A stretch of 64,000 nt of DNA from Candidatus Accumulibacter contiguus (GTDB taxonomy: Bacteria > Pseudomonadota > Gammaproteobacteria > Burkholderiales > Rhodocyclaceae). The stretch is from the NCBI RefSeq assembly GCF_012940005.1, contig NZ_SPMX01000027.1:1-64000 (forward strand), written 5' to 3'. The notes beneath the pieces are model-generated. The model did no database searches. It was not told the DNA's origin and saw only the letters and a list, made by a program, of their open reading frames with translations. Position numbers and translations under genes: made by a program. This document shows, in pieces, positions 1 through 52,818 of this stretch; within the stretch, counting starts at the first letter, position 1; each line of letters opens with the position of its first letter.

Positions 1-293
1 TTCCAGCGCCGAGAGCAATGTCGGCTCGTGCTCGATCAGCTTCTTGCGTCCACCCCCTGCTTTTCGGACGTGTCTACGAGAACCCGCCGGGTCGTCCTTG
101 GGCATGACCGCATTTTTCCGAATACAGCGTCATTCGCGATAGCCCCGTGGCTTTAGCGACGATGCTTTGTCCGCCGTAACCGAGCGCCTCGGCTTCCGCC
201 AACGCCCACACACGACCGCCCCCGCTCATCCAAAACCGTGGACACGCGCTCGAACTTCTTACGGATCGTTTCAACTAGCTCGTCATTACTCAT
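1..293 (-). pseudogene. ISAzo13-family transposase, N-terminal fragment
   Basis: The ATG at 293 opens a frame beginning MSNDELVETIRKKFE, followed by LDERGGRVWALAEAEALG, AKATGLSRMTLY and finally RKAGGGRKKLIEHEPTLL. This order is typical of the N terminus of ISAzo13-type transposases (helix-turn-helix part, before the catalytic core). The gene runs off the left edge, so the DDE domain is not visible. The frame is broken twice: at a C5 run (219-223, + strand) and a T5 run (113-117). Removing one base from each gives a continuous protein to the window edge. It may therefore be an old broken copy or an intact copy with two sequence errors. Identification is from remembered family motifs. Confidence 0.7.
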
Positions 294-329
294 GACGAGA
301 TCGTCGCCTACTCGTATAAGTTGTACAAG

Positions 330-551
330 TTATTTCTGGACAGATACTAAGTTGCTGCTGTAGATCTCGAACAACTCGCTCGCCACTGTGACCGCTTCAA
401 CACGTTCTGTAGTGGCTTCTGGTAACCAATCGCCACCGACGATGCGTGTGGCGCTGAAATCGGCGGAGGCAGGGACATTGTGGGTTGCGCTGGCGAGCGG
501 AATCTCCCTATCCCGAACGCTGCGATCGACCGAGAGGATTTGGCGCGGCAT
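330..551 (-). CDS. small hypothetical protein, possibly cut by the IS element
   Basis: A 73-residue frame starts at an ATG preceded by AAGGA about eight bases upstream. I do not recognise the product, which has no signal peptide, membrane segment or cysteine motif. Its last codons run into the AT-rich stretch that precedes the ISAzo13 transposase (about 300-350) and is probably the IS terminal region. The C terminus may thus be an accidental ending created by IS insertion. It lies just downstream of the giant gene on the same strand. A chance ORF is equally possible. Confidence 0.3.
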   Translation of the reverse strand: MPRQILSVDRSVRDREIPLASATHNVPASADFSATRIVGGDWLPEATTERVEAVTVASELFEIYSSNLVSVQK

Positions 552-689
552 GATCTTTTTCCTTGTTTCAGAGGAACTGTAGGCAATTTCGGGCTGTGGG
601 GCAGCATGCCACGGCTTTTCTGGCTCTGAAGTTGAGCCTTGCTCAGAGTTCTCAGCGTCACCAGTGGACTGTACGAATCACGGTTTCTC

Positions 690-3600
690 CTACATCATTT
701 CCACCACAATCTGGGAAAGCAATGCATCAGAGATGCCCGTCAGGGTCACTCCCCCTGCGATGCCGGAGGCGGGGTCGAAATAGATCGAGGTATTGTTACC
801 GAATGGATCCGCGGCGACAGACACGCCTGGCAGCACCTTGAACTCGGCCTCACTATAGACCGTATGATTGGTCGTATTGACGAACACCAGCTTGTCCTTG
901 ACGACGTCGAAGCCGTGGATGGTCACTTCGCCATCTCCTGCTTTGGTGATTCGACCGCCCACGATCTGGAAGTCGTAGCGGAATTCTTCCGCCGCTGCGC
1001 TCGCCGTCACCGTGCCGGAGCTGAGGTCGACCACTGTGAAGGCGGAGACGCTGCTACTCGGGACGATGAAGTTGGGGGTGCCGCTGACCGGAGCGGCACC
1101 GGCTGCCGGAAGGGTCACTCCCAGGGTGTTTGCAAACTCGGCATAGGTCTGACTGGTGGCCGTGTCGCCGGCGGGCGCGTTGGCGCCGAGCTGGAAGTGG
1201 AACTTCGACGCACCCAGGATCTGCACCTTGGCGCCGGTGGAGAGCGTCAATTGCGCGGCGTCGTGGTAGAAGCTGCTGGCGGTGAGGGTCATGCCGTCGA
1301 CCCATTGGATGACGTTCGCGCCTTCGGTGTCGGTGATCTTGGCGGTAACGGCACCGGCCAAGGTCATCGGGCTGATCACGTAGGTATCGTTGCCACCGCC
1401 ACCCAGATAGTTGTCGCCCGCCGAGGGAATGAAGAAGTCGTTGCCGAGCGTGCCGGGGACCGTGAAGGTACTTCCGGCAACGGCCGGGGTGAGCGTTGGA
1501 GCCTGCGTGAAACCGCTGGGAACGACGTAGCCCGCGGTGCCGGGAACCGGGGTCGAGCCGGGAGGTACGGAAGCACCCAGGGTAGCGGCGAACTGGGAAT
1601 AGGTCTGGGTGGTGGCGGTGTCACCGGCGGGTGCGTTGGCGCCGACCTGATAGCGGAACGTCGAGGCGCCGAGGACCTGGACGATGGCCCCACTGGCGAG
1701 CGTCAGTTGCGCCGCATTGCCGTAGAAGCTGCTGGCGCTGATCGTCATGCCGTCGACGAGCTGGATGATATTGTTGCCTTCCGTGTCGGTGATCTTGGCG
1801 GTGACGGCACCAGACAGCGTATGGGGGCTGATGACGTAGGTGTCGTTGCCGCCACCGCCCAGATAGTTGTTGCCGGCGGATGGAAGGAAGAAGTCGTTGC
1901 CCAAGGTGCCGGGGACGGTGTATGAGATGGGAGGCGGCGAGGGTATGGTACCGGTGCTGGTGTCCCTTATCCGGATGGAAGCCGTGGCGGATGTGCCGCT
2001 GATCGAGGCGGTCAGCGTCTCGTCGCCTTCCGTCTGGGCGTCATTGGCGAGTGGTACCGTAATGGTCGCCGTATTGTTGTTCACTGTGACATTGCCAGCT
2101 AGCGCACCACCTATCAGGTCGGCCGCGGTGATGCCCGTGCCGGACAGGACATACGGCAAAACTGTACCGTTCGAGACACCCGTGGTGGCGAGCGTGAACA
2201 TTGCACTCGATCCTTCATCGTAACTTGCGGCATTGGCAGCCAAGATATAGGTTGAGGTTGCAGTGTTTTCCGCAGGAGCAAAGTCCAATGTGTAGCCAGC
2301 GGCGGAAGCCGTACTCTGCTGGCTGAGTTTCAGGAAGTACTTGTCTCCTGGATCGCCTGGATAGTGGATTTCGAGAGACGTACTGCCGGTCACGGAATCG
2401 AGCAGGCTCCCGGCTGTTCCGTCGTCGTGTACCGCGAATAACTCAACGGTGACCACCTGACTACCGGGAATTTCAATGTGCACGGTGCCCGGTTGAGCCT
2501 CCTGAGTTTTCGGCGCTTCGAACTGGAACCAGTCGGGATTGGCGGGATCCACCCGTAGGCCGGCAAACCAGGCGTCCGCCGCGATCACGCCCAGGTCATG
2601 CGCCTTGCCAACGCTCTTGTTGCCATTGAGCCAGTCTTTGCCGTTGGCGACGGTTCCGGGAGCGTTCACATTGAGAGAATACTGCGAGACGCCGCCAGAC
2701 CCCGTGCTCTCGATCTTGACCAGATATTCGCGCGCCGCTTGCCCGCTCAGACTGACCGTTTCATGGCCAGTGCCGGTATTCGAAGTCGGAAGGGCGGTAT
2801 AGGCGGTGGTGGTCTGGTCGTAGTAGTAGAGCGAAAGCTTGAGTTTCTGCCCGTCCGCCGGATCATAGTTTACCGTCACGCCATCGCCCGTCACCGCGGC
2901 CTGCTCAATGGTGAAACGGAACCAGTCCACATCGGCAGCACTGTCGAGGCTCAGCCCGGTGAACGAATGACCATCGCCGATCAATCCATGCAGGTTGTAA
3001 GCGCGTGCGGCGACGTCGTTGGATTCCGCCCAATCTCCCTGGAAGCCGGTGCTACGGCTGGTGGGGCGGGTGAGGAAGGCATTGAGGAAGTTGCCCCAAT
3101 CCGTCGCCGCCAGAAAAGCCTGGTTCTCGACCGGATAACTGGCATTCACCGTGCCGCTGCCCGGCAAATAGATGGACAGGCCCTGCGTCTGGCGATGATC
3201 GGCCGTCTGATCGATCACCACGGCCTGCAGGGAATCATAAGCTGCGCCAGCGACATCCTTGAGACTGCTGACGCTGCCGGCGACGTTTTGCAGGAACTGG
3301 CCGAGATCGCAATAAGACGGATCCTGGAAGTGCGTGGAAGCGGCGCGTGCCTGATAAATGGCGTTCCAGTTGGCCGAGTCGGTCAGCGCGACAGCGCCAT
3401 CGCAAAAGGCTTTCAGCCTGCCGACAAAGCTGTCGAACTTCCCGGCATCGAGAGCGGCGAGGGTATCCTCGGGTCGGCCCTGGTTTTGTTGCTGGAAGCT
3501 GTCGACCAGACCAGCGGCCAGGGTCGACGCTGACGCCTGCGAGTCGATGCCCAGCGTCGAAAACGCCTGCGTATAGTCAAACCCGTTCCCATTCACCACC

Positions 3601-5699
3601 TCTTCCGAGGCAACAAGCACATCGGTGTGACTGCGCAGCGCGTATCCGACTTCCACGTTCGCCATCAGACAGGCATCGAAAGCAATCAGGTCCACGTTGT
3701 GGATGCCTGAGGCTTCAAGAGTGCTCAGTGCAGAGGCGAGTTCCGAGGTATACAGGCGAGTCGCCGACTGCGCATCTTCGTTGCCTTCGTTATCGAGATT
3801 GAAGCCACCAATGGAACCGCCGCCATGATCCCACATCACCAGCGCGTAATGGCTGGCCGGGGCGGCTGTTGCGCCCCATTGGACGAAGTCCACCAGCGTC
3901 GAGGGATTGCCAGTGTCCTTCTCGCCGATACGTTCGAAGGGCGTCGCTATGGTGTCGTCGCGGCTATCGGCGAGAATGACCGCCCGACCGGTGTCGCCCC
4001 AGGCCGCGCTGCCGCCGGTGGCGTAGGTCTCGCCCAGCGAGCTTTGATCCCAGAGGACAGCGAAATTGACCTTCCCCGGCAGCCCAGCCGTGGCCTTTTC
4101 CATCTCGTTGATGTCCGCGAAGGAGAATGGCTCCAGAGTGCTGGCGGTGACGTACACCAGGACGGTCCAGTCGTTTTGCGGTTTTGCGGTCTCGCCGCTG
4201 GTCGGTGCATCGAGATGCAGTTGGTAGGCGTTGGCGGTAGCCGTGTTTGCCCCTTTGACTTCGGCGTAGTACGTGCCGACGGCCAGTCCGTCGAGCGAAA
4301 GCGATTCGTTGCCACCAACGCCGGTGGCCATGGCCTTGGGTATGTGGTTCTGGTCGTACAGTTGCAGTTGCAGATCGCCTCGGCCCGCTTCGAACTGGAT
4401 GCCGAGGCTGCTACCGGCAGTGCCCCTGGTGGTGGTGGTGAATTTGAAGTAGTCGTGGTCGGCAGCGTGGATGGTGGCGTTGATGGTGGTGACACCACTG
4501 GTGAGATCAAGGTTGAAAGCGGTTTCGAAACCGTTGTTCGGTTCCAGGCTGTCCGGAGAAAGCGAGGTGTCCGGCGCGATGATCGACAAGGTGTACTGCG
4601 GGTTGACGGCACCGTTATAACCCGAGACTTCAATCTTGTACGGGCCTGCAGCCAGGTCTTTGAGGCTGATTTCCTCGAAATTTTCAGTACCTCTGGATTC
4701 CCCTCGCACGACGGTCCCGTTCTGATCGTAGAGAACCATATCCAGATCGCCGGAAGCATTGTCGAAGTCGATCCGGACCCTGTCACCTTCATGGCCAACA
4801 CCCCTGGTATTGAAGCTGAACCAGTCTCGATCGCTAGTGGTATCGATAGACAGGCCGGTCAGAACCCGTCCACCTTCAACATCGCGCAGGTCATAGGCCG
4901 TGGCGGCGGTATCGTTGCCTGCGCTGCCTTCTGCCCAATCACCAGCCGCGTCGCCCTGGGGCGGCGCGCTGAGTTCCAGGCTGTAGTTGGGGTTGGTCGC
5001 GCCTTCGACGCCGGTGACCCGAACGTAATAGCTCCCCTTCGCGAGACCCGCCAGGCTGACCTGCTCGCTGTCGCCGTTGCCGTCGGCGAGTTCGATCAGG
5101 TGTCTTTGGTATTGGGCTTCGGTGGTATTGGTGGTCGGATCGAAAGCTTCGAAAAGTTCCAGTTTCAGACTACCTTGGGTGTGATCGAGACGGATACCGA
5201 CGAACTGCCCGTCAGCGCCGTCGCGGCTGAGTTCGAACTTGAACCAGTCCTGGTCGCCAGGCGCATCTATTGAAAGGTTCGGCATGGCCAAACTGGCTGT
5301 CTCCGCGCGCCCCAGATTTCCCAAACCTCCATAGGCCATCGGGTTGACACTGCCTAGAATATAGTTCCCGTTGCCACCATAGTAAGTCGGGGTGAAGCTA
5401 CCCTGCGAATAATTCCCAGAACCACCGTAATTCAATGGACTGGGCAGGGAGGTATTCCAATAAGAAGAAGTTGGTAAGAAGAAGTTACTTGGACGTCCAT
5501 AATTACTATAGTAAGTCGGGGTGAAGCTACCCTGCGAATAATTCCCAGAACCACCGTAATTCGATGGGCTGGGCAGGGAGGTATTCCAGTAGGATGAACT
5601 CGGCGAGAGGAAAGAACTAGATGTGTTGCCAAAGCTCAAATTGCTACCATTATAACTTGGACGTGCTGTTCCGCCATGGTAAAAAAAAATCGTTTCCAA
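690..5699 (-). CDS. giant secreted repeat protein, C-terminal half: PPC domains, clostripain-like peptidase, RTX-like C terminus
   Basis: This 1,669-residue frame is probably the second half of one 3,284-residue protein. Order: a Gly/Ser/Tyr/Asn-rich repeat (residues about 1-145); three pre-peptidase C-terminal (PPC) beta domains, each with a DxDWFxF-like strand; a family C11 (clostripain-like) peptidase from about 510, with the expected His in WDHGGG (about 623) and Cys in DACLMAN (about 677); two more PPC domains; a Calx-beta-like segment; two about 152-residue modules starting GTLGNDFF with GGGGNDTY; and a C-terminal domain ending IVVEMM. GGxGND motifs and the acidic, cysteine-poor composition suggest type I secretion, but no T1SS genes are in the window. 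The apparent ATG at 5699 lies next to a T9 tract and is probably not the real start; the preceding frame joins here if one T is removed. No cleavable signal peptide is visible. Confidence 0.85.
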   Translation of the reverse strand: METIFFYHGGTARPSYNGSNLSFGNTSSSFLSPSSSYWNTSLPSPSNYGGSGNYSQGSFTPTYYSNYGRPSNFFLPTSSYWNTSLPSPLNYGGSGNYSQGSFTPTYYGGNGNYILGSVNPMAYGGLGNLGRAETASLAMPNLSIDAPGDQDWFKFELSRDGADGQFVGIRLDHTQGSLKLELFEAFDPTTNTTEAQYQRHLIELADGNGDSEQVSLAGLAKGSYYVRVTGVEGATNPNYSLELSAPPQGDAAGDWAEGSAGNDTAATAYDLRDVEGGRVLTGLSIDTTSDRDWFSFNTRGVGHEGDRVRIDFDNASGDLDMVLYDQNGTVVRGESRGTENFEEISLKDLAAGPYKIEVSGYNGAVNPQYTLSIIAPDTSLSPDSLEPNNGFETAFNLDLTSGVTTINATIHAADHDYFKFTTTTRGTAGSSLGIQFEAGRGDLQLQLYDQNHIPKAMATGVGGNESLSLDGLAVGTYYAEVKGANTATANAYQLHLDAPTSGETAKPQNDWTVLVYVTASTLEPFSFADINEMEKATAGLPGKVNFAVLWDQSSLGETYATGGSAAWGDTGRAVILADSRDDTIATPFERIGEKDTGNPSTLVDFVQWGATAAPASHYALVMWDHGGGSIGGFNLDNEGNEDAQSATRLYTSELASALSTLEASGIHNVDLIAFDACLMANVEVGYALRSHTDVLVASEEVVNGNGFDYTQAFSTLGIDSQASASTLAAGLVDSFQQQNQGRPEDTLAALDAGKFDSFVGRLKAFCDGAVALTDSANWNAIYQARAASTHFQDPSYCDLGQFLQNVAGSVSSLKDVAGAAYDSLQAVVIDQTADHRQTQGLSIYLPGSGTVNASYPVENQAFLAATDWGNFLNAFLTRPTSRSTGFQGDWAESNDVAARAYNLHGLIGDGHSFTGLSLDSAADVDWFRFTIEQAAVTGDGVTVNYDPADGQKLKLSLYYYDQTTTAYTALPTSNTGTGHETVSLSGQAAREYLVKIESTGSGGVSQYSLNVNAPGTVANGKDWLNGNKSVGKAHDLGVIAADAWFAGLRVDPANPDWFQFEAPKTQEAQPGTVHIEIPGSQVVTVELFAVHDDGTAGSLLDSVTGSTSLEIHYPGDPGDKYFLKLSQQSTASAAGYTLDFAPAENTATSTYILAANAASYDEGSSAMFTLATTGVSNGTVLPYVLSGTGITAADLIGGALAGNVTVNNNTATITVPLANDAQTEGDETLTASISGTSATASIRIRDTSTGTIPSPPPISYTVPGTLGNDFFLPSAGNNYLGGGGNDTYVISPHTLSGAVTAKITDTEGNNIIQLVDGMTISASSFYGNAAQLTLASGAIVQVLGASTFRYQVGANAPAGDTATTQTYSQFAATLGASVPPGSTPVPGTAGYVVPSGFTQAPTLTPAVAGSTFTVPGTLGNDFFIPSAGDNYLGGGGNDTYVISPMTLAGAVTAKITDTEGANVIQWVDGMTLTASSFYHDAAQLTLSTGAKVQILGASKFHFQLGANAPAGDTATSQTYAEFANTLGVTLPAAGAAPVSGTPNFIVPSSSVSAFTVVDLSSGTVTASAAAEEFRYDFQIVGGRITKAGDGEVTIHGFDVVKDKLVFVNTTNHTVYSEAEFKVLPGVSVAADPFGNNTSIYFDPASGIAGGVTLTGISDALLSQIVVEMM
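5381..5592 (-). repeat. 129-bp in-frame tandem repeat, Gly/Ser/Tyr-rich
   Basis: The block starting at 5381 is repeated, nearly base for base, from 5510, giving a period of 129 bp or 43 codons. Each unit encodes NYGGSGNYSQGSFTPTYY preceded by SYWNTSLPSP. A partial further copy is seen on the 5381 side (GNGNYILGS). The segment sits inside what would otherwise be one PPC domain and has much lower GC content than the rest of the gene, so it looks like a late insertion or expansion. Confidence 0.8.
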
Positions 5700-5874
5700 A
5701 GTTACTAAGGTTTTGTCCCTGGTCTAATAAAGACCAAGTACGGCTAAAATCAAAATCCGACGAAGCATTCTGACCAAACTGTTGCGAAATAATCGAGGTG
5801 GGAACATTTGCCTGATGATAAGCCTGATTATATGAGTATTGGGCGCTCAGATTTAAAGCAGGAATAGTAGACAA
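5650..5874 (-). pseudogene. middle fragment of the giant repeat protein (third reading frame)
   Basis: A 74-codon open stretch in a third frame between the two large frames. Its nominal start is TTG with no convincing Shine-Dalgarno. The frame is already open upstream and joins the N-terminal half if one C is removed from the C9 tract at 5905-5913. At its 3' end it joins the C-terminal half if one T is removed from 5681-5689. The text includes NLSNFGNDFF, resembling the GNDFF and NFFLP elements of the neighbouring repeats. It is best read as an internal piece of the giant gene, not a separate gene. Confidence 0.75.
5681..5689. other. A9/T9 homopolymer with frame break in giant gene
   Basis: Nine A on the + strand (nine T in the coding strand). 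With eight, the middle fragment (frame of 5874) reads straight into the large downstream frame (5699-690). It is either a one-base sequence error or a slippage-prone tract. Confidence 0.8.
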
Positions 5875-8800
5875 AATGCCAGTCCATCCAGGAGGGTATG
5901 TATAGGGGGGGGGAGGAGCGCGTCTGCGAGCTCGCCACGCTCATATCTGTGGCATTCCGCAAATCGTAGGCGTCGATTGGGCGATTGTTGTCTTCTGCAG
6001 CATCGGATGTCGGCGCCGACGTGCCAGTCACGGCCAGGTTATATTCCGGATTCGTCGCCCCGTCGTTTCCCGTAACCTTGGCGAAATAAGTCCCCTTGGC
6101 TTTCCCCGCCAGGGAAATCTCCTCGAAGTTTTCCGACGTCGTCGAACTGGCCAAACGGCTGCCGCTGGCGTCGTAGAGTTCCAGGCTGAGATCGCCTTCC
6201 CATTTGTCGAAGTCGATGCGGACCTTGTCGCCGGCCGTGGCATCCTTGTCGAGGGTGAACTTGAACCAATCCTGGTCGCCGGCCGGACTGATCGACAATC
6301 CCCCCACCTGCAAGGTGCCGGAAACCGAGCGAAGGTCGTAGGCTTTTTGCCGGGTGTCGTTGCCGTCGTTGCCCTCGGCGAAATCTGGCTTCAGCGTCTG
6401 CGGAGTGTCGAAATCCAGGGAATAGCTCGGACTTGTGGTGCTGCCGGTGGCTCCGTAAATCTTGACGAAGTATTGGTATTCGTCGGTGGGCCGGTTTTCC
6501 AGGGAAATGGCTTCCCGGTCGCTGTCGGACAACGATTCTCCCAACTTCTCGCCGTTCTTGTCGAACAGTTGAAGCTGCAAATCGCCCTGCGTGTGATCGA
6601 ATTGAATGCTCACCGAATGACCGGGGCCGCCCATTCCGACGGTGGAGAAACTGAACCAGTCCACATCGCCGGCGTGATCCAAGGAAAGCCCGGAAAAGGC
6701 TTGAGTCCCCTCGACGGTCTGCAAGGCTTTGGCTGCCGCCCGCGTATCGTTGCCTTCGGCCCAGTCCGCGGGATTGTTGTCCGGGGCGTTGATCGAAAGC
6801 TGATAACTCGGATTGGCCGCGCCATGGTAACCCGCCACCTTGACCAGATAGCTTCCCGCGGGCAACGATGCGCCGCTGGCATCGGCCAGCTTGATCTGCT
6901 CGACGTTGTCGGTGGTTTCCGCCTTGCCCAACAGTGTCGCGCCGCTCGAGTCGTAGAGATACAAATCCAGGTCACCCTGAGTCTGGTCGAACTGAATCCG
7001 CACGAAGTCACTGGCATCCGTTTTCAGCGTGGTGAACCTGAACCAGTCCACGTCGGAGGCTTGATGCAAAGAGAGCGGGGCCCAAGTCTGCAAACCCTCC
7101 ACATTGCGGAGGTTATAGGCGCTTGCAACGGTATTGTTGCCCGAGGTTCCTTCGGCCCAATCACCCTGGGTGTCCTTGGGCGGGTCGATGAACAGGGTGT
7201 AGTCGGGGTTGGCAGCTTCCTGGTAACCGTAGACCTTGAGATAATAATCCCCGGCTGTCTTGCCGTTGAGGGAGATGCTCTCCAGGCCGGTGACGCCAGT
7301 GGAACTGTCCAGCAAGGTCGTCCTGTCGGCAGCATAGAGGGCGATATCCAGGTCTCCCTGGCCGTGATTGAAACTGATGCCGACCGCGTCGCCGGATTCG
7401 CCGGTTGCACCGATATGGAACTTGAACCAATCCACATCGGACGCCTGAATGGACAGGTTGCCCTGACTGTAAGGACTGCTGACGTCGCCCAGGTCCTTGG
7501 CATGCACTGCGTCGTTGTTGCCTTCCGCCCAGTCACCGCCAGTCTGGGTGAACGGCGCCTGAACCGACAGTGCATAGGCGGAGTTGGTCGCCCCGTTGTA
7601 GCCCTTGACTTCCAGATAGTAGGTCGCGGCCTTCAGGTCCTTCAGGTCAATGGCGTGCAGATTGGCGACGCCTTCCGATTTTCCGATGAGTTGGTTGGAG
7701 GCGTCATAGAGATATAAATCGAGATCGCCCGCCGTGTGATCCAGACTGATTTGCGCAAAATCGCCGCTGCGTCCAGCCGTCGCCAGAGTGAACTTGAACC
7801 AATCGACATCGGTTTGGCTATTGATCGACAGCGGGCGCGCCGCATCGATGCCGAGTTGAACCAGGTCGGAACCGGGATGGGTCAGCGAGTTCAGTTCGGT
7901 CGCCTGTGTGCGATTGTTGTTGGGTTCTGCCCAATCCTGGCTGTTGGCTACAGGGGCAGCGATAGTGAGCGAATAAGCGGGGTTTTTCGCATTGTTGTAA
8001 CCGTAAACCTGAATCTTGTAATCGCCTGGGTTTAGCCCATCGAGAGAAATCTGTTCGTGGTCACCGACGCCAGATGAAGTACGTCCGGAGATGGTATTCC
8101 CAGCGCTGTTGCATAGCTTCAGATCCAGATCGCCGAGCGCATGCGAGAAATCAATCCGGACAAAATCGTTGTTGGTGCCCTTGCCCGGCAGGCTGAACTT
8201 GAACCAGTCGGCGTCGTCGATCGACAGATTATTCCAGGTCTGCTGCGCCGTCGCACGGGTGAGCGTTTTCGCGTCGTCTTGGCGGTCGTTGTCCTCATAG
8301 GAGTCATTGCCGGGAGCATTGATGGCCAGGGTGTAATCGGGATTGGTCGCGCCCTGATACCCCGCCACATGGATGTAATAAGTGCCTTGAGTCAAACCGT
8401 TCAGATCGATTCTTTCCATATCCCGGAAACCGGTCGACTGGAGCACAGGAGTTGTTCCGCTTTCCCGATAAAGCTTCAGGTCCAGATCACCCTTGGTGGT
8501 ATCAAATGTGGCGGCAACATAATTCCCGTAACTTCCGGTGCCGTTCAATTGAAACTTGAACCAGTCCTGATCGCCCGAAGTGATGGATAGCTTTTCCCAT
8601 GCATAAAACCCCGCACTCTGAAGCCAGCCGTACTGAGGAGCGCCAAGATTTGTTGCAGTGGCACGGGTATTATTGCTGGCGACGCTATCGAAAGAGTCGG
8701 TTCTAATGTTGCTATTGGTACCAGGCGCATTGATCGTCAGGCTGTAATCGCTGGTGCTCTGATTATACCCATACACCTTCAAATAATAATAGGTTCCAGC

Positions 8801-10546
8801 GGTCAGCCCGGACAGCGCAATGGCTTCCACACCTTCGATTCCGATTGAATAATCGATCAACTGGTTTGCGGAATTATACAGTTCGATATCCAGATCTTCC
8901 TGCAAACCGTCGAAATCAATCTGGAGATAATTCTGGTTTGACCCTTGTCCGGAAAGCTGGAATTTGAACCAGTCGACATCAGAAGCACGATCGATAGACA
9001 AATCGGTTTCTTGCCGGAATCCACTGACCTCCCCCAAATTTGTGGCCGTATTCCGGGTGTTATTGCTCGCGGTGGCATCATAGTGATCAGGTGTGGGTGC
9101 TTGTGGCAGGTAGAAAAGCAGATCGTAGGATGAGGTGACGTTCCCTTCATAACTTCCGGCTCGCAAATAGTACGTTCCCGGCTGCAGTCCGGCCAAGGGA
9201 ATTGCATTCCAGTCGTATCCTGTGGCGTCCCAGTAGGTCGTATAAATGATATTCCCGGAGCTGTCTTCGAGTTCGAGATCGATATCGCCGGTACCGGTGA
9301 CAAGGCTCAGGATAATGTCAGTATTCGTCGCGACGCGGGTGGTCGTAAGTTTGAAGACGTCGACATCGCCAGTGGTGGAGCCCGGCCGGTCGATGGATAG
9401 ATCGGAAAAATAGTAGCCAATGCCAGGCAGCGATACCCCTCTGTTAACGGGCGTCGCAGTCGGACGTGTATCGTTGCCTTCGAAGTGGTCCTTGGGAATT
9501 TGCGGCGCATTGATTTCGAGTGTGTAGTAGGCATTGCTCCAACCCAGGTAATCGCCGGAATAGTAATCAAATACCGTTGCTGTGTAGGTGCCGGCCGGAA
9601 CATCTGCCAGCGATATAGTCTCCAGGTTCCCATTGGTCGGATCATCGTCGTAATCCGCTTCGATAAAAACACCATATTGATCGTACAAGCGAAGCACCAG
9701 ATCGACGTAGGTGGAACTCGACGAGACGCGGACATAGTCGCCGGATCCACCAGTAAGGACGGTGGAGAAGTCCCAATTGTCGCTGGGGTCGCCATAGTAT
9801 ATGAAGTCGGTCAGATAGCCATAACCCTGCCTGGAACCCAGATTGGAGGTCGATTGTTCGAGAAGCACGGATTGGCTATCGAGCAAGAGTGCAACCCTGT
9901 CGTCTTCGGCCCGCATTCGTTCCAAGTCGGAAGCAGTCAGCACCTGGTTTCGGACGAGAGCCGAAAAAAACTCCCCTTCGTCGCCCGGTGAATCGGCAGC
10001 ATTCAGGCGCACGTCCAGCGCGTGCCCCAATTCCTCAAGCAGGACAGATGTGATCGCTTCGGGCTTATCGGCGTTTTCAGAGAGAAATTCTCTCGCCAGA
10101 TAAATCGTGTCGGTTGCCGCCGCATAAGCGCCTTGGGCGCGATTGATTTCCACTTCTGGGCAGATTTCCAGCCTTGGCCAGGAGATGAAATCCGGCTCGG
10201 CGAAGCCCTGAACAAGCATTCTTGCCCGCAAGGGGTCGACGCCGTTTCCGAAAACCTGGTGGATATCGTTTTCGAAATCGGGATTGAGCAGGAATTGGCG
10301 GAGGGTGCTCTGAGCCAGGGTCAGGTAAACTCCTAGGTCCGTCGCTTGGCTGTTTGCTGTTGGCCGGCGCCCGGCAGCGCTGCCGGCTACGGGGTCGCCG
10401 CCAGGTGCCTCGACGATCGGGCTGGCCAGACCATCACCGTGAATGTCGTCGTCGACAATGACACCGCTCAAGTCACCGGCGCTATCGCCGTTGATAACGA
10501 AGCCGCCGGTCGCGGCGGCGGTACTCGAGAGTTTGATGGCAGGCAT
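5828..10546 (-). CDS. giant secreted repeat protein, N-terminal half: zincin-like N-terminal domain and about ten PPC domains
   Basis: This 1,572-residue frame starts at an ATG with GGA about ten bases upstream. Residues about 80-235 form a domain with LLEELGHALD at about 168-176 followed by DSPGDEGEFFSALV. I associate this segment with the N termini of large cyanobacterial and proteobacterial calcium-binding repeat proteins; it resembles a degenerate metal-binding helix (E-E-L-G-H). About ten PPC-like beta domains of 110-140 residues follow, each with DWFKF or a variant, GDLDLxLYD, a GLxxGTYY strand and NPxYxLxI. An eleventh domain begins with AYDLRNATD but is broken at the C9 tract 5905-5913, after which the frame gives an unrelated tail. 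The missing half of that domain (LSIDAPGDQDWFKF) appears early in the downstream frame, so the two frames belong to one gene of 3,284 codons. Predicted extracellular. Confidence 0.85.
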   Translation of the reverse strand: MPAIKLSSTAAATGGFVINGDSAGDLSGVIVDDDIHGDGLASPIVEAPGGDPVAGSAAGRRPTANSQATDLGVYLTLAQSTLRQFLLNPDFENDIHQVFGNGVDPLRARMLVQGFAEPDFISWPRLEICPEVEINRAQGAYAAATDTIYLAREFLSENADKPEAITSVLLEELGHALDVRLNAADSPGDEGEFFSALVRNQVLTASDLERMRAEDDRVALLLDSQSVLLEQSTSNLGSRQGYGYLTDFIYYGDPSDNWDFSTVLTGGSGDYVRVSSSSTYVDLVLRLYDQYGVFIEADYDDDPTNGNLETISLADVPAGTYTATVFDYYSGDYLGWSNAYYTLEINAPQIPKDHFEGNDTRPTATPVNRGVSLPGIGYYFSDLSIDRPGSTTGDVDVFKLTTTRVATNTDIILSLVTGTGDIDLELEDSSGNIIYTTYWDATGYDWNAIPLAGLQPGTYYLRAGSYEGNVTSSYDLLFYLPQAPTPDHYDATASNNTRNTATNLGEVSGFRQETDLSIDRASDVDWFKFQLSGQGSNQNYLQIDFDGLQEDLDIELYNSANQLIDYSIGIEGVEAIALSGLTAGTYYYLKVYGYNQSTSDYSLTINAPGTNSNIRTDSFDSVASNNTRATATNLGAPQYGWLQSAGFYAWEKLSITSGDQDWFKFQLNGTGSYGNYVAATFDTTKGDLDLKLYRESGTTPVLQSTGFRDMERIDLNGLTQGTYYIHVAGYQGATNPDYTLAINAPGNDSYEDNDRQDDAKTLTRATAQQTWNNLSIDDADWFKFSLPGKGTNNDFVRIDFSHALGDLDLKLCNSAGNTISGRTSSGVGDHEQISLDGLNPGDYKIQVYGYNNAKNPAYSLTIAAPVANSQDWAEPNNNRTQATELNSLTHPGSDLVQLGIDAARPLSINSQTDVDWFKFTLATAGRSGDFAQISLDHTAGDLDLYLYDASNQLIGKSEGVANLHAIDLKDLKAATYYLEVKGYNGATNSAYALSVQAPFTQTGGDWAEGNNDAVHAKDLGDVSSPYSQGNLSIQASDVDWFKFHIGATGESGDAVGISFNHGQGDLDIALYAADRTTLLDSSTGVTGLESISLNGKTAGDYYLKVYGYQEAANPDYTLFIDPPKDTQGDWAEGTSGNNTVASAYNLRNVEGLQTWAPLSLHQASDVDWFRFTTLKTDASDFVRIQFDQTQGDLDLYLYDSSGATLLGKAETTDNVEQIKLADASGASLPAGSYLVKVAGYHGAANPSYQLSINAPDNNPADWAEGNDTRAAAKALQTVEGTQAFSGLSLDHAGDVDWFSFSTVGMGGPGHSVSIQFDHTQGDLQLQLFDKNGEKLGESLSDSDREAISLENRPTDEYQYFVKIYGATGSTTSPSYSLDFDTPQTLKPDFAEGNDGNDTRQKAYDLRSVSGTLQVGGLSISPAGDQDWFKFTLDKDATAGDKVRIDFDKWEGDLSLELYDASGSRLASSTTSENFEEISLAGKAKGTYFAKVTGNDGATNPEYNLAVTGTSAPTSDAAEDNNRPIDAYDLRNATDMSVASSQTRSSPPLYIPSWMDWHFVYYSCFKSERPILI
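5905..5913. other. G9/C9 homopolymer with frame break in giant gene
   Basis: Nine G on the + strand (nine C coding). With eight, the N-terminal half continues into the middle fragment as SSPPYTYPPGW then LSTIPALN. Together with the T9 tract it accounts for the whole split; 9,855 bases then make exactly 3,285 codons including the stop. Confidence 0.8.
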
Positions 10547-11102
10547 GACGCAGATCCAAAGTTCGTTGATTGGGCTGAGGAAACCCAGCCACCCTCCCGG
10601 ACTTCAGGTTAGGGTCTGAAGCTTTGCGTCTGGAGCTTACACTCCATTTGCCTTGATCTCACCAAAAATGTACCATCGCTATCAGGGTCTTCTGTTGACC
10701 TGGATCAGCAATTCTCATTTTTTGGCTGAATTCCCGGCGGCTACGCCGGAACGGGTGGAGAACGTAACCGTGACACTGTTGGCGAATTCTTGACCATCCT
10801 TCAGGCGGCCAGAGCGGGTGCCTTGAGGGAGGTGAACCGCGAGCATCGGGTGGGTGCCACTGGAACCCCATTCCACCAGTCGGTAGTTAGTGTTTGGTGG
10901 AAAACCAGAAAACACACGCTTTATCAGTATGTTACAATACGCGATGACGAGCGAAGATGGCAATGCCAGAGCAATATACTTTTGGGTTGAATTCGTAGAT
11001 GTCTGATTATTAGCTGATATTCTGGTGGTGATTGCTGTGGAAGGCGACTTTCCTCCACCGCTTGGGGTTTTGTGGGACGAACTTCAGTCGAAGGAAAGAG
11101 CG
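10547..11102. other. intergenic stretch without a supportable gene
   Basis: This holds the upstream region of the giant gene (minus strand) and the flank of the ISNCY remnant (plus strand). An 82-codon minus-strand frame (10715-10963) and a 66-codon plus-strand frame (10790-10990) overlap each other and I recognise neither. I see no strong sigma-70 promoter, tRNA or terminator. It is probably IS-derived debris, but that is a guess. Confidence 0.5.
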
Positions 11103-11862
11103 ATGCGGGAAGTCATGAAGCGGCAAGCGAGTTTGGGCGAGTTTCCGATCGAAGCCATCGTGCTCGATCCCAAATCGCGGGACGACATCCCGAAACTGCT
11201 CGTCGGGCTGCAGCACATTTATACGCATCGCGAACTGCGAGACGAAGTCTTTGCGATCCTCGAGGAAGTGCTTCCCTGCCATGCTGATGGCAAGCTGGCC
11301 AGCAGTGCACTGGGGCGACCCGGCATGGAGCAGTGGAAGATCCTGGTGCTGGGCGTCGTGCGTCTCGGGCTTGACGCGGACTACGACCGGTTACAGGAAC
11401 TCGCCAATCAGCACAAGACGTTGCGCCAAATGTTGGGGCATGCCGACTGGTACGATCCGCACAGGTACGAATTACAGACCCTGAAAGACAACCTGCGACT
11501 GTTTGCGGGTCGTGAGCTTCGACAAGGGCTTTCACAGTCCGTCGAATCGATCGTGTCTCGAAGCGCGACTGGACTTGGTCGCCCTCCCCAAAAAAGGCCG
11601 CCACTCGGCCGCTGATGATGCGAGGGAAACGGCACCGGAATTTGTCCAGGCGCGGCATAAGCATTCCGCGGTGGAATCCGCGATCAATGGCCTGGAGCAT
11701 TTCGGGCTCGATCTGTGCCCGGATCACGGAATCGTCGGCTTCAAACGCTACGTGGCGCTGGCTGTCCTGGCGCGCCACATCCATCGCCTGGGGGGTGTGG
11801 TTCGCGAGCAGACTGCCCGTACAAAAGCCCTGGTGCCCGAGCCGCAAACCCGAGCCGCCTGA
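11103..11862 (+). pseudogene. ISNCY-family transposase remnant with internal deletion
   Basis: The ATG at 11103 has a good Shine-Dalgarno (AAGGAAAG). The frame reads MREVMKRQASLGEFPIEA, LVGLQHIYTHRELRDEVF and GRPGMEQWKILVLGVVR, then LKDNLRLF near 11500. All are hallmarks of the N terminus of the large ISNCY transposases common in betaproteobacteria. It then jumps into another frame reading SFDKGFHSPSNR, ALPKKGRHS and HSAVESAINGLEHFGLD, the normal C terminus of the same family, ending at 11862. The catalytic middle (probably 150-200 residues) is deleted at about 11505-11515, so the element cannot make active transposase. The 200 bp downstream are probably non-coding IS end sequence. Confidence 0.8.
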
Positions 11863-33037: not shown

Positions 33038-33068
33038 AAAAAAAAGCAGCCGTCCGGCTGCTTTTTTT
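33038..33068. terminator. bidirectional intrinsic terminator between ubiJ and atpC
   Basis: The stem GCAGCC/GGCTGC is flanked by an A-run (33038-33045) and a T-run (33062-33068), giving a U-tract in either direction. It sits between the converging ubiJ and atpC genes and would end both operons. Confidence 0.88.
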
Positions 33069-33089: not shown

Positions 33090-33512
33090 TTAGTGACGTT
33101 TGCGTAGTCTCTTGATTGCCTGCAACTGAGCAACCGCTTGCGCCAGCTCCGCTTCGGCGGTAGCCAGCCCAACCTCTGAAGAGCGATTCTTGAGTGCTTC
33201 TTCGGCGCGACGCTTGGATTCCATTGCCTTGGCTTCGTCGAGGTCGTGCGCACGGATCGCCGTGTCTGCCAGGACCGTAATCAACGCTGGCTGCACTTCC
33301 AACATCCCGCCCGAGACGTAAACCATTTCGTACTCGTCGCGATCCGGAACTTTCAGACGAACGGTCCCCGGCCTGATGCGGGTCAACAGCGGCGTGTGCC
33401 GCGGATAGATTCCGAGTTCGCCGGCCTCACCCGGAAAGACCGCGAAGTCCGTTTCGCCGGAAAAGATCAATTCCTCGGCGCTGACGACGTCAACATGTAC
33501 TCTGATTGCCAT
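33090..33512 (-). CDS. atpC: ATP synthase F1 epsilon subunit
   Basis: A 140-residue central-stalk subunit that couples rotor to catalytic head and inhibits ATP hydrolysis. The sequence has the beta-sandwich opening [16 protein letters not shown], the motif [13 protein letters not shown] and the two-helix C terminus. The start ATG 33512 has AAGGAAA upstream and matches the family N terminus; the frame runs further but without homology. It is the last gene of the atp operon, ahead of the terminator. Confidence 0.95.
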
Positions 33513-33580
33513 GGTTTTTCCTTGCTGGGCCGTATCCCAGGCGCGTAGGGCGCCCGGAAACGACATTTGCTCCTGCTAGA

Positions 33581-37986: not shown

Positions 37987-37990
37987 GATG

Positions 37991-40047: not shown

Positions 40048-40140
40048 ACCGCAACTGCAAAAAAAGTTTGAATTCCTCGACAGCATCTGCCCTGCAGCCA
40101 GGATCGGCGAGTCCTGGACAGGCTTTCATGGTGCGGCGCA

Positions 40141-45113: not shown

Positions 45114-45128
45114 GAGAACCGTGTAACC

Positions 45129-45158: not shown

Positions 45159-45179
45159 ATGGCGGGTCTCAGTGCAAAG

Positions 45180-45207: not shown

Positions 45208-45234
45208 CAATGCAACTCACCAGGAACAAGACCC

Positions 45235-46794: not shown

Positions 46795-46804
46795 AGGCTC
46801 TGCC

Positions 46805-46826
46805 GCCAGCGCCTGCGGGCGCTGGC
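46805..46826 (+). other. 9-bp GC hairpin after ahpF
   Basis: GCCAGCGCC / GGCGCTGGC with a four-base loop, ten bases after the ahpF stop. The T-run needed for a classic terminator is missing. Confidence 0.45.
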
Positions 46827-46896
46827 GCTCGGCTCCGGCAGCAGTGATTCCACTGACGGCTTGATCGCCAGACCGCAGTCAGGTAAGGTTCAAGCC

Positions 46897-47664
46897 ATGA
46901 AGAACCCCGAGACGACGGCGGATCTGCTGCACACGCTCGGCAAGGAAATGTCGAGCAAGCGGGCCCTGCTGATTGATCGCTACCCGAACGCCCGCACTTC
47001 GCTGCGCATGATGCTTTCGGCGATGGGTGTTGGCGCCATAGACAACGCCGGCACTTCAGCCGACGTCTTCCGGCAACTCAGGGCGCACCGTTTTGACATC
47101 ATCCTCTCCGACTACCTGCTCGAAGACGGACGCGACAGCCAGCAACTGCTCGAAGAGCTGCGCGAACAACACCTGCTGCCGCGGTCTACCGTATTCTTCG
47201 TGATCACCAGTGAGCGTGCCTATCACAACGTCGTCTCGGTGGCCGAGCTGGCGCCTGATGACTATCTGATCAAGCCCTTTACGGCCCATGAATTGAACGC
47301 ACGTCTGGCGCGCGCACTCTACAGGAAACGCTTCTTCGCGCAATTCTACGAACAACTCGACAACGGTGCCTACGTTGATGCGCTGGCGACTTGTGAACGT
47401 CTGATCAGACAGGACAGCGGCTTTCGTTTTGACGCCTTGCGTCTCAAGGGGGGAGACGCTCAATGCGCTGGGCCGGCATGCGGAAGCGCAACGCGTCTTC
47501 CAGCAGGTACTGGCACAGCGGGTCGTGCCCTGGGCACGGATGGGCCTGGCGATTGCGCTGCGTGGACAGCAACAAATGTCCGAAGCCGAAGCATTCGGGC
47601 AATCGCTGATCGACGACTTCCCGGAATTCATCGCTGCCTACGATTTTCTCGCCGAGGTGCGTGA
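46897..47664 (+). CDS. REC-TPR response regulator, N-terminal part (frame broken)
   Basis: The receiver domain (ALLIDRYPNARTSLR, phospho-acceptor Asp in DIILSDYLLED, conserved Lys in DDYLIKPF) begins at ATG 46897. After about residue 185 the frame is lost at a G6 run (47448-47453), and the downstream text to 47664 is meaningless. With one G fewer it continues into the TPR frame (ending 48619) as a 573-residue protein. The receiver has no DNA-binding domain; the TPR part probably mediates protein contacts. The following LysR gene converges and overlaps by four bases. Confidence 0.8.
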   Translation: MKNPETTADLLHTLGKEMSSKRALLIDRYPNARTSLRMMLSAMGVGAIDNAGTSADVFRQLRAHRFDIILSDYLLEDGRDSQQLLEELREQHLLPRSTVFFVITSERAYHNVVSVAELAPDDYLIKPFTAHELNARLARALYRKRFFAQFYEQLDNGAYVDALATCERLIRQDSGFRFDALRLKGGDAQCAGPACGSATRLPAGTGTAGRALGTDGPGDCAAWTATNVRSRSIRAIADRRLPGIHRCLRFSRRGA

Positions 47665-48619
47665 AGAAGTGGGCAAGCTCACGGAAGCCCAGGAAGTGTT
47701 GCAACGCGCAGCAATGATCTCGCCCAACAACTCGACACGACAACGCATGGTTGGCGACGTGGCGGCACGTAACCAGGATCTCCCGACCGCCGAGAAGGCC
47801 TACGGCAAGGTGCTGCAGCGTCGCCGCAACTCGTCCCTGCGGGACATCGACGACTACACCAATCTCTCGCGGGTGATGCTCGACCGCGGACATACCGCTG
47901 CTGCCCGACTGGTCACCGAAGAACTTCGCCGTGACTGGCGAGGCAACCAGCAAGGCGAATTTGCTGTGCTGGTCATGGAAAGCCTGTGTGCAAACCAGGA
48001 AGGTGAACCTGCCAAGGCCAGGCAGGCAGTGGAGAAGGCACTCGTTTTGCACGAGGCCTTGAAGAACGAAGGCCGCAGCGGAACGGTCTCCGAGAAACTG
48101 GCGCTCGACCTGGCGCACGCATGCCTCGTCACGGGCGATGAGGAAAACGCGCGCGACATCATCCGCAAGATCGCCGCCGAAAACCATGAAGACCGCACCA
48201 TGATCGCCCAAGTCCAGAGCATCTACGCCAAAACCGGCAAGGAAGCGGAGGGCCAGGCGCTGCTCGCGCAGGTTGGTCGGGAAATCGTTGAACTCAACAA
48301 CCGCGGTGTGCTGGCTGCCCGCCGCGGCGATGTCGAAGGCTCGGTGAGATTGTTGATGGAGGCTGCGGAACGGGTACCCAATCTGCAGTTTCTGGTCAAT
48401 GCGACGAAGGCGATTTTCACTCTGCTCGAACGGAAGGGCTGGGATCCTTCCCTGGCCAGGCGAGGAATTCGTTTCCTGCAACTGGCACAAGCCAGGGACA
48501 TGCGCAACGCGAGGGTGATTTCGGCGCGCGACTTGTACCATCGCGTCGCGCGCAAATACGGTGTTGCCGTGGTTCCGTTCACCGCTTCCGGGATGTTTCG
48601 CAGCAAGGGCGGCTTCTAA
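47429..48619 (+). CDS. REC-TPR response regulator, C-terminal TPR part
   Basis: Helical repeat protein text from GETLNALGRHAEAQRVFQQVL onward: several TPR units (LGRHAEAQRVFQQVL; EVGKLTEAQEVLQRA; DLPTAEKAYGKVL), then a C-terminal helical region ending MFRSKGGF. It is not an independent gene: its nominal start lacks a Shine-Dalgarno, and it joins the receiver part when one G of 47448-47453 is removed. TPR-containing response regulators without an output DNA-binding domain are common in beta- and gammaproteobacteria. Confidence 0.8.
   Translation: MTPCVSRGETLNALGRHAEAQRVFQQVLAQRVVPWARMGLAIALRGQQQMSEAEAFGQSLIDDFPEFIAAYDFLAEVREEVGKLTEAQEVLQRAAMISPNNSTRQRMVGDVAARNQDLPTAEKAYGKVLQRRRNSSLRDIDDYTNLSRVMLDRGHTAAARLVTEELRRDWRGNQQGEFAVLVMESLCANQEGEPAKARQAVEKALVLHEALKNEGRSGTVSEKLALDLAHACLVTGDEENARDIIRKIAAENHEDRTMIAQVQSIYAKTGKEAEGQALLAQVGREIVELNNRGVLAARRGDVEGSVRLLMEAAERVPNLQFLVNATKAIFTLLERKGWDPSLARRGIRFLQLAQARDMRNARVISARDLYHRVARKYGVAVVPFTASGMFRSKGGF
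47448..47453. other. G6 run with frame break in REC-TPR gene
   Basis: Six G; with five, AAG GGG GAG ACG CTC joins receiver and TPR frames as KGETLNAL. Confidence 0.75.
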
Positions 48620-49527: not shown

Positions 49528-49633
49528 TTATAAACCATAGTAAATGGAAAATCACATTTTATCTCATTGGACATGATGCTGCGGTGCAGGCACAGTGCAC
49601 TCGACCGGAAAGAGCTACGAACCCTACCGGACT

Positions 49634-49683
49634 AACGGTCATGACTTTTCCAGACACCCCCGATCATGAAAGTCATGACCGTT
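49634..49683. repeat. 15-bp perfect inverted repeat between lysR and the TerB-like gene
   Basis: AACGGTCATGACTTT at 49634-49648 pairs exactly with 49669-49683, loop 20 bases. The TGACTTT/AAAGTCA cores and overall size suggest an intergenic palindrome or a regulator site. Confidence 0.7.
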
Positions 49684-49684
49684 T

Positions 49685-49709
49685 CCCTCTCCCCCGCGAG
49701 GGGGAGGGG
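49685..49709. repeat. GC-rich palindrome
   Basis: CTCCCCC / GGGGGAG around a GCGA loop, one base after the previous inverted repeat. Palindromes of this type recur in intergenic DNA of many proteobacteria. Confidence 0.6.
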
Positions 49710-49762
49710 AGATTCGTGAGTCGCTGACGCGACTTTCACATTAACCAATCAAGGAGAAAAGC

Positions 49763-50146
49763 ATGCGCAATTACACCACCGACAGCGCCGAAGCCACGGC
49801 TCGCCTGATATCTCTCGCACTGCTCGCCGATGGTGGGCTGGACAATAGCGAACTGGACTCACTCGAAAAACACTCGATTCTTGATCAGCTCGGCATCACC
49901 CCGGATACCTTCGATCGGGTGATGCACGAATTCTGCAACGACGTACTGCAATCGGCGCGTTCCCCCAACATCGGGCAGATCGAGATTGATCCTGAGGTGA
50001 TCACTCACCTTCTCGGCGACATTCGCTCACCGGCACTGCAAAAAAAAGGTGCTGCGCGCGATGCTCGATATCGTCAATGCCGACTGGTGCATCAGCGGTG
50101 CCGAAGCGGTCCTCGTATCTCAGGCCATGAGCCGCTGGGGACTTGA
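49763..50146 (+). CDS. TerB-like protein, N-terminal part (frame broken)
   Basis: An 127-codon frame with AAGGAG upstream: SAEATARLISLALLADGGLDNSEL and LGITPDTFDRVMHEFCND are TerB-type helical text. At an A8 run (50040-50047) the frame shifts and the tail is meaningless. With seven A it continues as LQKKVLRAMLDIVNADW into the frame ending at 50324, giving 186 residues. TerB-like domains occur with metal or stress functions; the role here is unknown. Confidence 0.7.
   Translation: MRNYTTDSAEATARLISLALLADGGLDNSELDSLEKHSILDQLGITPDTFDRVMHEFCNDVLQSARSPNIGQIEIDPEVITHLLGDIRSPALQKKGAARDARYRQCRLVHQRCRSGPRISGHEPLGT
50040..50047. other. A8 run with frame break in TerB-like gene
   Basis: Eight A; seven gives CTG CAA AAA AAG GTG and joins the two TerB frames. 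Confidence 0.75.
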
Positions 50147-50324
50147 ACTCCACCAGCTGCCACCTTCCGGAAAAGCAGCAGACATCCGCCTGCCCTTTCA
50201 GATCGAAAGCCAGGAGAGCCCTCCTAGCGAAGGATCGGATAGCCCATTGCACATCCAGCGTCTGGTGCTATTGCTCAACGCGGCTCCAAATGCCGGCCTC
50301 CCAGGCCAAGGTAGCTTTCAATGA
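50049..50324 (+). CDS. TerB-like protein, C-terminal part
   Basis: This frame carries VLRAMLDIVNADWCISGAEAVLVSQAMSRWGLEL, the second half of a TerB-like domain (D..S..E acidic loop), and a variable tail. It is joined to the previous part by removing one A of 50040-50047. Its end overlaps the converging livF by about 50 bases. Confidence 0.65.
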   Translation: MLRAMLDIVNADWCISGAEAVLVSQAMSRWGLELHQLPPSGKAADIRLPFQIESQESPPSEGSDSPLHIQRLVLLLNAAPNAGLPGQGSFQ

Positions 50325-51045
50325 CCCTCGGATCGGTGGCCAGTTCGCGGCTGGGTCCTTCCAGACAAAGCTCTCCGGTTTCGAGGACATAGCCGTAATC
50401 GGCAAGCTGTAGCGCTGCACGAGCGTTTTGTTCGACGAGCAGGATGGCCACCCCGGTTTTCTTCAATTGCGCAACGGTACGGAAAATTTCCCTGATGATC
50501 AGCGGCGCCAGTCCCAGGCTGGGTTCGTCGAGCAGTAACAGTCTTGGCTTGGCCATCAGCGCGCGACCCATGGCCAGCATCTGGCGTTCGCCGCCGGAAA
50601 GGGTTCCGGCCATCTGCGCTCGTCGCTCCATCAGGCGCGGGAAGATGTCGAACACCTGATCCATGGTCTCCAGTTCATCGCGGTGTCCGGCACGATAGCG
50701 GTCGAATGCCCCCAGCAGGAGGTTGTCTGCGACACTCATTTCGGCAAAAAGCTCGCGTTTCTCGGGTACCAGGGTCATCCCCTGCCGTACCAGCTGCTCT
50801 ACCCTGCGCCCTGCGCCCTGCGACTCACCGAGATAGATGATTTCGCCGCGCGCCGGCAACAGGCCAATCAGCGCCGATAGCAAGGTAGTTTTGCCGGCAC
50901 CGTTGGGGCCAATGACGGTGACAATCTCGCCCCGGTGCACCTGCAGCGCCAGACCATGCAACGCTTCCACCTTGCCGTAGCTGACCGACAGACCTCGCAC
51001 CTCGAGTACGAGGTTTCTTTCACTCTCTTCCGGCAGTGCGTTCAC
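50275..51045 (-). CDS. livF: branched-chain amino acid-type ABC transporter ATPase LivF
   Basis: A 256-residue ATPase: Walker A GPNGAGKTTLL, signature LSGGERQML, Walker B LLLDEPSLGLAP. The gap after LSYGK and the size place it in the LivF group. The start overlaps the livG stop as ATGA. It is the last gene of the liv operon. Confidence 0.92.
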   Translation of the reverse strand: MNALPEESERNLVLEVRGLSVSYGKVEALHGLALQVHRGEIVTVIGPNGAGKTTLLSALIGLLPARGEIIYLGESQGAGRRVEQLVRQGMTLVPEKRELFAEMSVADNLLLGAFDRYRAGHRDELETMDQVFDIFPRLMERRAQMAGTLSGGERQMLAMGRALMAKPRLLLLDEPSLGLAPLIIREIFRTVAQLKKTGVAILLVEQNARAALQLADYGYVLETGELCLEGPSRELATDPRVIESYLGLGGRHLEPR

Positions 51046-51908
51046 TCGACCCCCCCAAGGTAGGCTTCAATCACCGCCGGATTGCGCTGCACCTCTTCGG
51101 GCAGGCCGCTAGCCAGCTTCTGGCCGAACTCCATGACCAACACTCGATCGGCCAGACCCATCACGAAATCCATGTCATGCTCGACTAGCAGGATGCCGAT
51201 ACCTTCAGCTCGCAAGCGCCGCAGCAGACCGGCGAGCGACTGCTTTTCCAGGTAGCGCAGGCCAGCAGCCGGCTCGTCGAGGAGCAACAGACAGGGATCG
51301 GCAGCCAATGCACGGGCAATCTCGACGATGCGCTGCTTGCCAAGCGGCAGGCTGCCGGCAGCTTCGTACATCTGCTCGGCCAAGCCACAGCGCTCGATCT
51401 GCAAGGCAGCTTCGTGCAGCAGTCGCGCCTCCTCTGCACGTTCGCTGCGACAGGCAGCGGCGACAAAGCTCTTGCGGCCGCGCAAGTGGGCGCCGATGGC
51501 GACATTCTCGATGACGCTCATTGCCGGCAGCAAACGCACATGCTGAAAGGTCCGGCTCATGCCACGGCGTGCAATTTCGCGCGCCGGCAAGTACTCGACG
51601 CGTTCGCCGCGAAAGCTGACGCTCCCGGAAGTCAGCGGGTCAACGCCGGAAATGCCATTGAACAGGGTGCTCTTGCCGGCACCGTTCGGCCCGATCAAGG
51701 CCATCACCTCACCGGCCCTGACCTTGAAACTCACCCGGTCATTGGCCACCAGGCCACCAAAGTGCTTGCTGGCATCCTGGACCTCCAGCAGCACTGAACC
51801 CACCTCGGGCTGTACCCGCCGCGCCAGCGGCGCCGCGCCTTCGGCCTGCATGCGCAACAACACCTGCTGTGGAAAAAAAACGCTGCAGCATCGGCCACAG
51901 GCCGTCAC
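51042..51908 (-). CDS. livG: ABC transporter ATPase LivG (probably the C-terminal half of a LivM-LivG fusion)
   Basis: The ATPase core starts near [20 protein letters not shown], with Walker [12 protein letters not shown], signature [15 protein letters not shown] and Walker [11 protein letters not shown]. The upstream text to 51908 shows no Shine-Dalgarno start and reads backward into livM when one T is dropped from the T8 tract 51873-51880; the joint product would be 591 residues. LivM-LivG fusions are known in proteobacteria. Confidence 0.85.
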
Positions 51909-52818
51909 GTGCGCGATGCAGAACGAAGATCATCAGCAGACCGAAAACGATGATCTCGAAGTTGCCGCTTTGCCCGAGTAATCTCGGCAACCAATCCTGC
52001 AACCATTGTTTGAGCACGGTAATCAAGCCGGCGCCGAGGATCGCTCCCCAGACGTGCGAGACACCGCCGACCACTGCCATGAACAGGTACTCGATGCCTT
52101 GCGTCAGCGAGAACGGCGTCGGATTGACGAAGCGCTGCAGGTGCGCATAAAGCCAACCCGAGACGCTGGCGTAGAGTGCGGCCACCGTGAACACCACGAT
52201 CTTCGAGCGCGGCGTGTTGACCCCCATCGCTTCGGCCATCACCGAGCCACCCTTGAGCGCACGGATGGCGCGGCCCTCACGCGAATCGAGCAGATTGCGT
52301 GTGGCGAGAACGAGAACCAGCAGCACCGTCCAGATCAGATAGAAGAACTCGCGCCCCGATTTGAGTTCCAGATCAAGCAGCCGCAACGGGGGAATGCCAC
52401 TGATTCCGGTGTGCCCGCCGAGCGCATCGAGATTGCCAAACAGATAGTAAAGGCTCATTCCCCAGGCAATCGTGCCCAGCGGCAGAAAGTGGCCGGAAAG
52501 CCGCAGAGTGACCAGACCAAGCGAGAGAGCCACCACCGCCGTGACCAGCAGGCCGGCAGGCAGCGTCAGCCAGGGTGAAACGCCGTGTACGGTCGTCAGG
52601 TAGGCCGAAGTGTAGGCGCCCAGGCCGACGAAAGCAGCCTGTCCGAAGGACGTCAGGCCACCGACGCCGGTGAGCATCACCAGACCCAGGGCAACGATGG
52701 CGTAGAGACCGATGTAGTTGAGCAGCGTGACGTAGAACTCGGGCAGCAGCAATGGCGCGATCGCCAGCGCGGCGATGAAGAGCAGCAGCAGGAGCGTCGA
52801 ATGCAAACTGCGTTTCAT
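51739..52818 (-). CDS. livM: branched-chain amino acid-type ABC permease LivM
   Basis: A multi-pass permease with the LivM motif [18 protein letters not shown] and [14 protein letters not shown]. As given it ends with a nonsense tail (after LQRFF) because of the T8 tract 51873-51880. With seven T the frame goes on into livG as FFPQQVLL, making one membrane-ATPase fusion. Start overlaps the livH stop as ATGA. Confidence 0.85.
51873..51880. other. A8/T8 run with frame break at the livM-livG junction
   Basis: Eight A on the + strand; seven would fuse LivM and LivG in frame. Confidence 0.75.

Follow-up and report, generated by a model that had tools for sequence, protein, structure and literature searches.

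The window analysed here covers bases 1-64000 of a contig 77,447 bases long and belongs to a draft genome of 5.02 Mb in 167 contigs (G000). It carries genes for a giant secreted protein, a response-regulator/TPR (REC-TPR) protein, a TerB-like protein and a LivM-LivG fusion, all of them interrupted at homopolymer tracts, as well as a fragment of an insertion sequence (IS). Among named genomes, the window's LivM has its best matches in metagenome-assembled genomes of "Candidatus Accumulibacter", a genus of polyphosphate-storing sludge bacteria. The genus was represented by 28 genomes, including the window's own. Relative loci came from two overlapping sets, in which some genomes were fetched twice, and the counts of 41, 15 and 98 given below refer to loci and not to independent genomes. 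Ribosomal protein S7 (PF00177) had no match in the whole draft genome, its high completeness estimate notwithstanding, and was matched in 13 of 14 control genomes.

The giant gene lies on the reverse strand and is annotated as two ORFs, the first with PPC repeats (5828-10546) and the second with Peptidase_C11 and PPC domains (690-5699, from the ORF list and domain matches). Its only orthologue among the 28 genus genomes is found in G004, a near-complete match at 93-94% DNA identity that makes G004 the one genome that has the gene. There, both ORFs are part of one continuous frame, with a single ORF reading through both tract sites, C7 at the first and no long T tract at the second. Two long alignments between the genomes contain nine indels, eight of which are multiples of three, which indicates selection on the frame of the giant gene. 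The ninth indel lies at the C9 tract (5905-5913, G9 on the forward strand), associated with a +1 frame change. The second +1 change, at a T9 tract (5681-5689, A9 on the forward strand), is known only from frame continuity with G004, because this stretch is too divergent for base-by-base alignment. The backbone that G004 shares with the window's genome is ~81-84% identical, versus 93-94% across the giant gene (690-10546), and on this identity difference the PPC/Peptidase_C11 gene was probably acquired by recent horizontal transfer.

The remaining genes have many more relatives available for comparison. On the forward strand, the REC-TPR gene is represented by two ORFs (46861-47664 and 47429-48619, from the ORF list and domain matches), with a +1 change at a G6 tract (47448-47453), and forms one ORF in all 41 relative loci holding both halves. 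Further along the same strand, the coding part of the first ORF of the TerB-like gene (49763-50146) stops at an A8 tract (50040-50047), again with a +1 change, and all 15 relative loci with both halves have the gene as a single ORF; its orthologues L003 and L014 have weak Pfam TerB matches (25.6 and 18.0 bits, cut-off 24.4). Directly before this gene lies an intergenic element of ~115-120 bases (49627-49745), which recurs at six or more further sites in the same genome and in many relatives, including G010, and is a dispersed intergenic repeat family. On the reverse strand, the LivM part (51739-52818, BPD_transp_2) and the LivG part (51042-51908, ABC_tran and BCA_ABC_TP_C) of the fusion gene are separated by a +1 change at a T8 tract (51873-51880, A8 on the forward strand). 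Across the corresponding region (51042-52818 in the window), 97 of 98 loci, whose titles are mostly Rhodocyclales, encode LivM and LivG as a single fused ORF; the sole exception, L029, has separate LivM and LivG genes and is distant (39 and 47% identity).

All five tracts occur exactly where an earlier note on this DNA had placed them, and all five coincide with a +1 frame change relative to relatives, the uniform sign which that note had claimed. The basis differs between tracts: alignment with G004 for G9, frame continuity only for A9, and alignment together with ORF comparison for G6 and both A8 tracts. A coding-potential scan by itself recovers two of these five breaks, and marks both giant-gene tracts as non-coding owing to a low-complexity stretch. 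The window contains five runs of at least 8 bases, four of them inside the genes in question and all four broken, with the fifth (33038-33045) falling between an ORF that ends at 32999 and an ORF at 33090-33566. Taken on its own, the agreement in sign is weak evidence (5/5, two-sided p 0.06), and its strength comes from the genome-wide data. Comparison with relatives, which the earlier note had proposed as a check, found the window's splits in none of the relative loci holding both halves, except for the distant LivM/LivG pair of L029. Relatives hold each gene in one open frame, which bears out the proposal that the giant protein, REC-TPR, TerB-like and LivM/LivG genes are best annotated as single intact genes. 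One further tract, missing from the list in that note, is an intergenic A7 (40059-40065, forward strand) that is A6 in five of five aligned relatives, so that non-coding DNA is affected as well.

The IS fragment (1-352) was compared with seven distinct other copies in the same genome, an eighth match (C74:1-220) being left out. The window copy carries one additional T in a TT (98-99), a base that five of the six copies spanning the site lack, and one additional C in a CC (216-217), a base that all seven copies lack. The same statement that had correctly described the five gene breaks had also assigned extra bases in this fragment to C5 (219-223) and T5 (113-117); this part did not stand, since neither tract differs in length among the covering copies and the extra bases lie in pairs at the sites above. 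Nor do the IS copies as a group share a single sign, as copy L123 differs in both directions. The seven comparisons include 19 single-base indels and 4 substitutions, a pattern suggestive of sequencing noise more than of decay. Its ISAzo13 label could not be confirmed: eight translated pieces, compared with Pfam for an ISAzo13-type transposase domain, had no match at all, and the fragment spans only 352 bases. Contig C74 of G000 (L116, L127; bases 1-619) opens with two oppositely oriented copies of this fragment, at 1-220 and at 270-619, which may be a contig-end assembly artefact. A separate ISNCY-type transposase remnant in the window (11025-11862) consists of pieces matching model positions 1-114 and 346-443 of 444, the middle being gone.

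Frame breaks of this kind recur well beyond the window. We applied a coding-potential scan allowing frame shifts to 41 stretches of the window's own genome, the window among them (621,442 coding bases in all), and, as a control, to 20, 10 and 10 stretches of G010, G004 and G013 (645,155 coding bases). At runs of at least 5 bases, 13 shifts were detected in the own genome, all of them +1, and a single one in the three relatives, with sign -1 (13 versus 0 for +1, Fisher p about 1e-4). This lone control shift lies at an A8 tract of G010 (L329 7625-7632). The breaks are spread throughout the assembly rather than confined to one region (13 in 41 stretches), and their frequency climbs with run length: the broken share of coding runs of 5, 6, 7, 8 and 9 bases is 1/670, 2/108, 4/31, 5/10 and 1/1 in the own genome, versus 0/611, 0/105, 0/20 and 1/4 for runs of 5 to 8 bases in the pooled relatives. 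Because the scan finds only two of the window's five breaks, these counts are low. Long runs are also in excess, both outside genes (34 non-coding runs of at least 8 bases in 157,800 bases versus 13 in 154,845 in relatives, 2.6 times commoner, p 0.003) and within them (16 coding runs of at least 8 bases versus 6, p 0.03). Most tracts are nonetheless equal in length to those of G010 (34 equal, 3 longer, 1 shorter), and the error is thus occasional rather than general. An earlier, stricter scan, with the run within 4 bases of the shift, detected 2 cases for the window and 1 for the first sample, but none among 14 Accumulibacter loci that had served as training data for the coding model as well, and none among 66 other loci.

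Irrespective of runs, the scan counted 31 +1 shifts in the own genome versus 5 in the relatives, and 18 of these 31 lie away from runs of at least 5 bases. Gene borders and a transposase remnant explain only some of these 18; the window's three off-run +1 shifts, which are among the 31 and outside the 13, lie in the transposase remnant (11504) and at gene borders (41819 and 62692). Shifts of sign -1 in the same stretches number 18 for the own genome and 16 for the three relatives together; most of them are probably overlapping gene ends. Several candidates were set aside: the window's -1 or mixed shifts at 21463, 22472, 32422 and 46778 and the shift at L149 17506-17552 (+1 in 6 and -1 in 2 of 8 covering loci), all placed at gene ends or between genes by the ORF lists, and a +1/-1 pair at L149 7435-7438, whose two shifts compensate each other.

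Two other 20-kb stretches of the genome (L148 and L149) aligned with relatives revealed four internal +1 breaks, in hslV, cysS, icmF and a transketolase gene, with all covering loci in agreement for each break (5/5, 6/6, 6/6 and 10/10, respectively). A cell lacking cysteinyl-tRNA synthetase is not viable. The genome has no second full-length cysS, the only one being split, and indispensable single-copy genes are thus hit too; since the enzyme is essential, the break cannot be real unless it is bypassed. Across the genus, 25 of 28 genomes have an unbroken cysS; the gene was not found in G003 and is split only in the window's genome and in G015. In the latter, the gene (L369 1356-2820) is split at the same KMSKS codons, with the same A7 tract, in a region only 76% identical to the own genome, so that over-calling must have struck twice with the same error type. 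In 52,947 coding bases of G015, the scan detected a +1 shift at a G7 tract and another about ten bases past the cysS A7, along with four -1 shifts away from such runs. A shared error type is the simplest account of this signature, a shared biological oddity being a less likely one, and G015 may have the same fault. No mutS match was found in G015, which may reflect an incomplete assembly.

Real, recent frameshift mutations, in which polymerase slippage lengthened the tracts of pseudogenes or of a slippage-prone lineage, would likewise favour long runs, would be compatible with the excess of long non-coding runs, and could find a parallel in the missing mutS match of G015. However, all 13 run-associated changes are +1, the only cysS is among the broken genes, mutS and mutL are both full length in the own genome, and the frame of the giant gene is preserved at its other indels, which together make this origin exceedingly unlikely. 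Independent gene decay was rejected on the uniform sign, the hit on the only cysS and the frame-preserving indels of the giant gene, and a mutator strain on the full-length mutS and mutL. For the giant gene alone, phase variation, with the C9 and T9 tracts switching it on and off by slipped-strand mispairing, is suggested by the presence of long C and T tracts within 240 bases of each other in the gene of a secreted protein, and the relevant part of PMC3711429 describes phase variation via such tracts as mostly concerning exposed proteins. Yet the tracts are unconserved in the only orthologue, where G004, with C7 and without a long T tract, reads straight through, and they follow the same pattern as the over-long tracts seen in cytoplasmic genes of this assembly; we consider such switching very unlikely.

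Alternatively, the longer tracts could be real and the frame restored by slippage of RNA polymerase or the ribosome. This recoding would fit the A7 shared by the cysS genes of two genomes that are 76% identical, and bacterial slippage on A/T runs does exist, as described in the portion of PMC1088944 consulted; that portion, however, surveys mainly runs of nine A or T, whereas the present runs include 6 and 7 bases and runs of G. In addition, the window's five tracts are not conserved in relatives, and cysS keeps one frame in 25 of 28 genus genomes, being split in only 2 of the 27 with a match, so that we give recoding almost no credence. A related scenario, in which some Accumulibacter lineages truly carry runs one base longer, including in cysS, and are rescued by slippage on runs of 6-8 bases, with the shared cysS A7 as its trace, appears highly improbable.

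Over-calling of homopolymers is the best account of the +1 sign, the dependence on run length, the spread over many contigs, the hits on vital genes and the near-absence of such breaks in three relatives. Judged from sequence comparison, the five gene breaks are very probably consensus errors (probability roughly 0.94), with homopolymers one base too long and the whole assembly affected. Systematic over-calling was also the cause put forward in the earlier note, and it gains support from the genome-wide recurrence of +1 changes, their climb with run length, the split of the only cysS and the non-coding tract that is hit. In this model, the process would record runs one base too long, at an error rate growing with run length, and each affected gene would most likely be one intact gene in the living organism. 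We infer that the cause lies in sequencing or assembly and not in mutation, with a platform or pipeline that favours insertion. Counting against over-calling are the equal length of most tracts in G010, the cysS A7 that recurs in G015, the extra bases of the IS copy, which occur in pairs and not in long runs, the 18 of 31 +1 shifts away from runs of at least 5 bases, and the scan sensitivity of 2/5. Such an artefact is of low biological interest but of practical use to annotators of this genome: annotations of the draft are unfit for claims of lost or split genes. At 13 shifts per 621 kb of coding DNA, ~4 Mb would by extrapolation hold some 80 broken genes, and likely more, as the scan missed three of the five in the window.

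A search of the literature collection covered, for Accumulibacter together with homopolymer errors, retrieved nothing on point. In the excerpts considered, nanopore consensus sequences contain gene-breaking homopolymer indels (PMC9262707), and pyrosequencing yields both over-calls and under-calls (PMC3764156). The present breaks resemble these consensus errors in being single-base run-length errors that break genes and worsen in longer runs, and differ in that every run-associated error detected in this genome is +1. Phase-variable contingency genes, as covered in part of PMC3711429, share with the giant gene the occurrence of C9 and T9 tracts in the gene of a secreted protein, whereas the genes affected here are mostly cytoplasmic or housekeeping; the same source regards frame breaks without conserved counterparts as likely indel mutations or sequencing errors. 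Finally, transcriptional slippage, which the sections consulted of PMC1088944 study with stretches of nine A or T residues, likewise shifts the frame at homopolymers of A or T, but the tracts described here are runs of 6-8 bases, include runs of G, and are unconserved among relatives.
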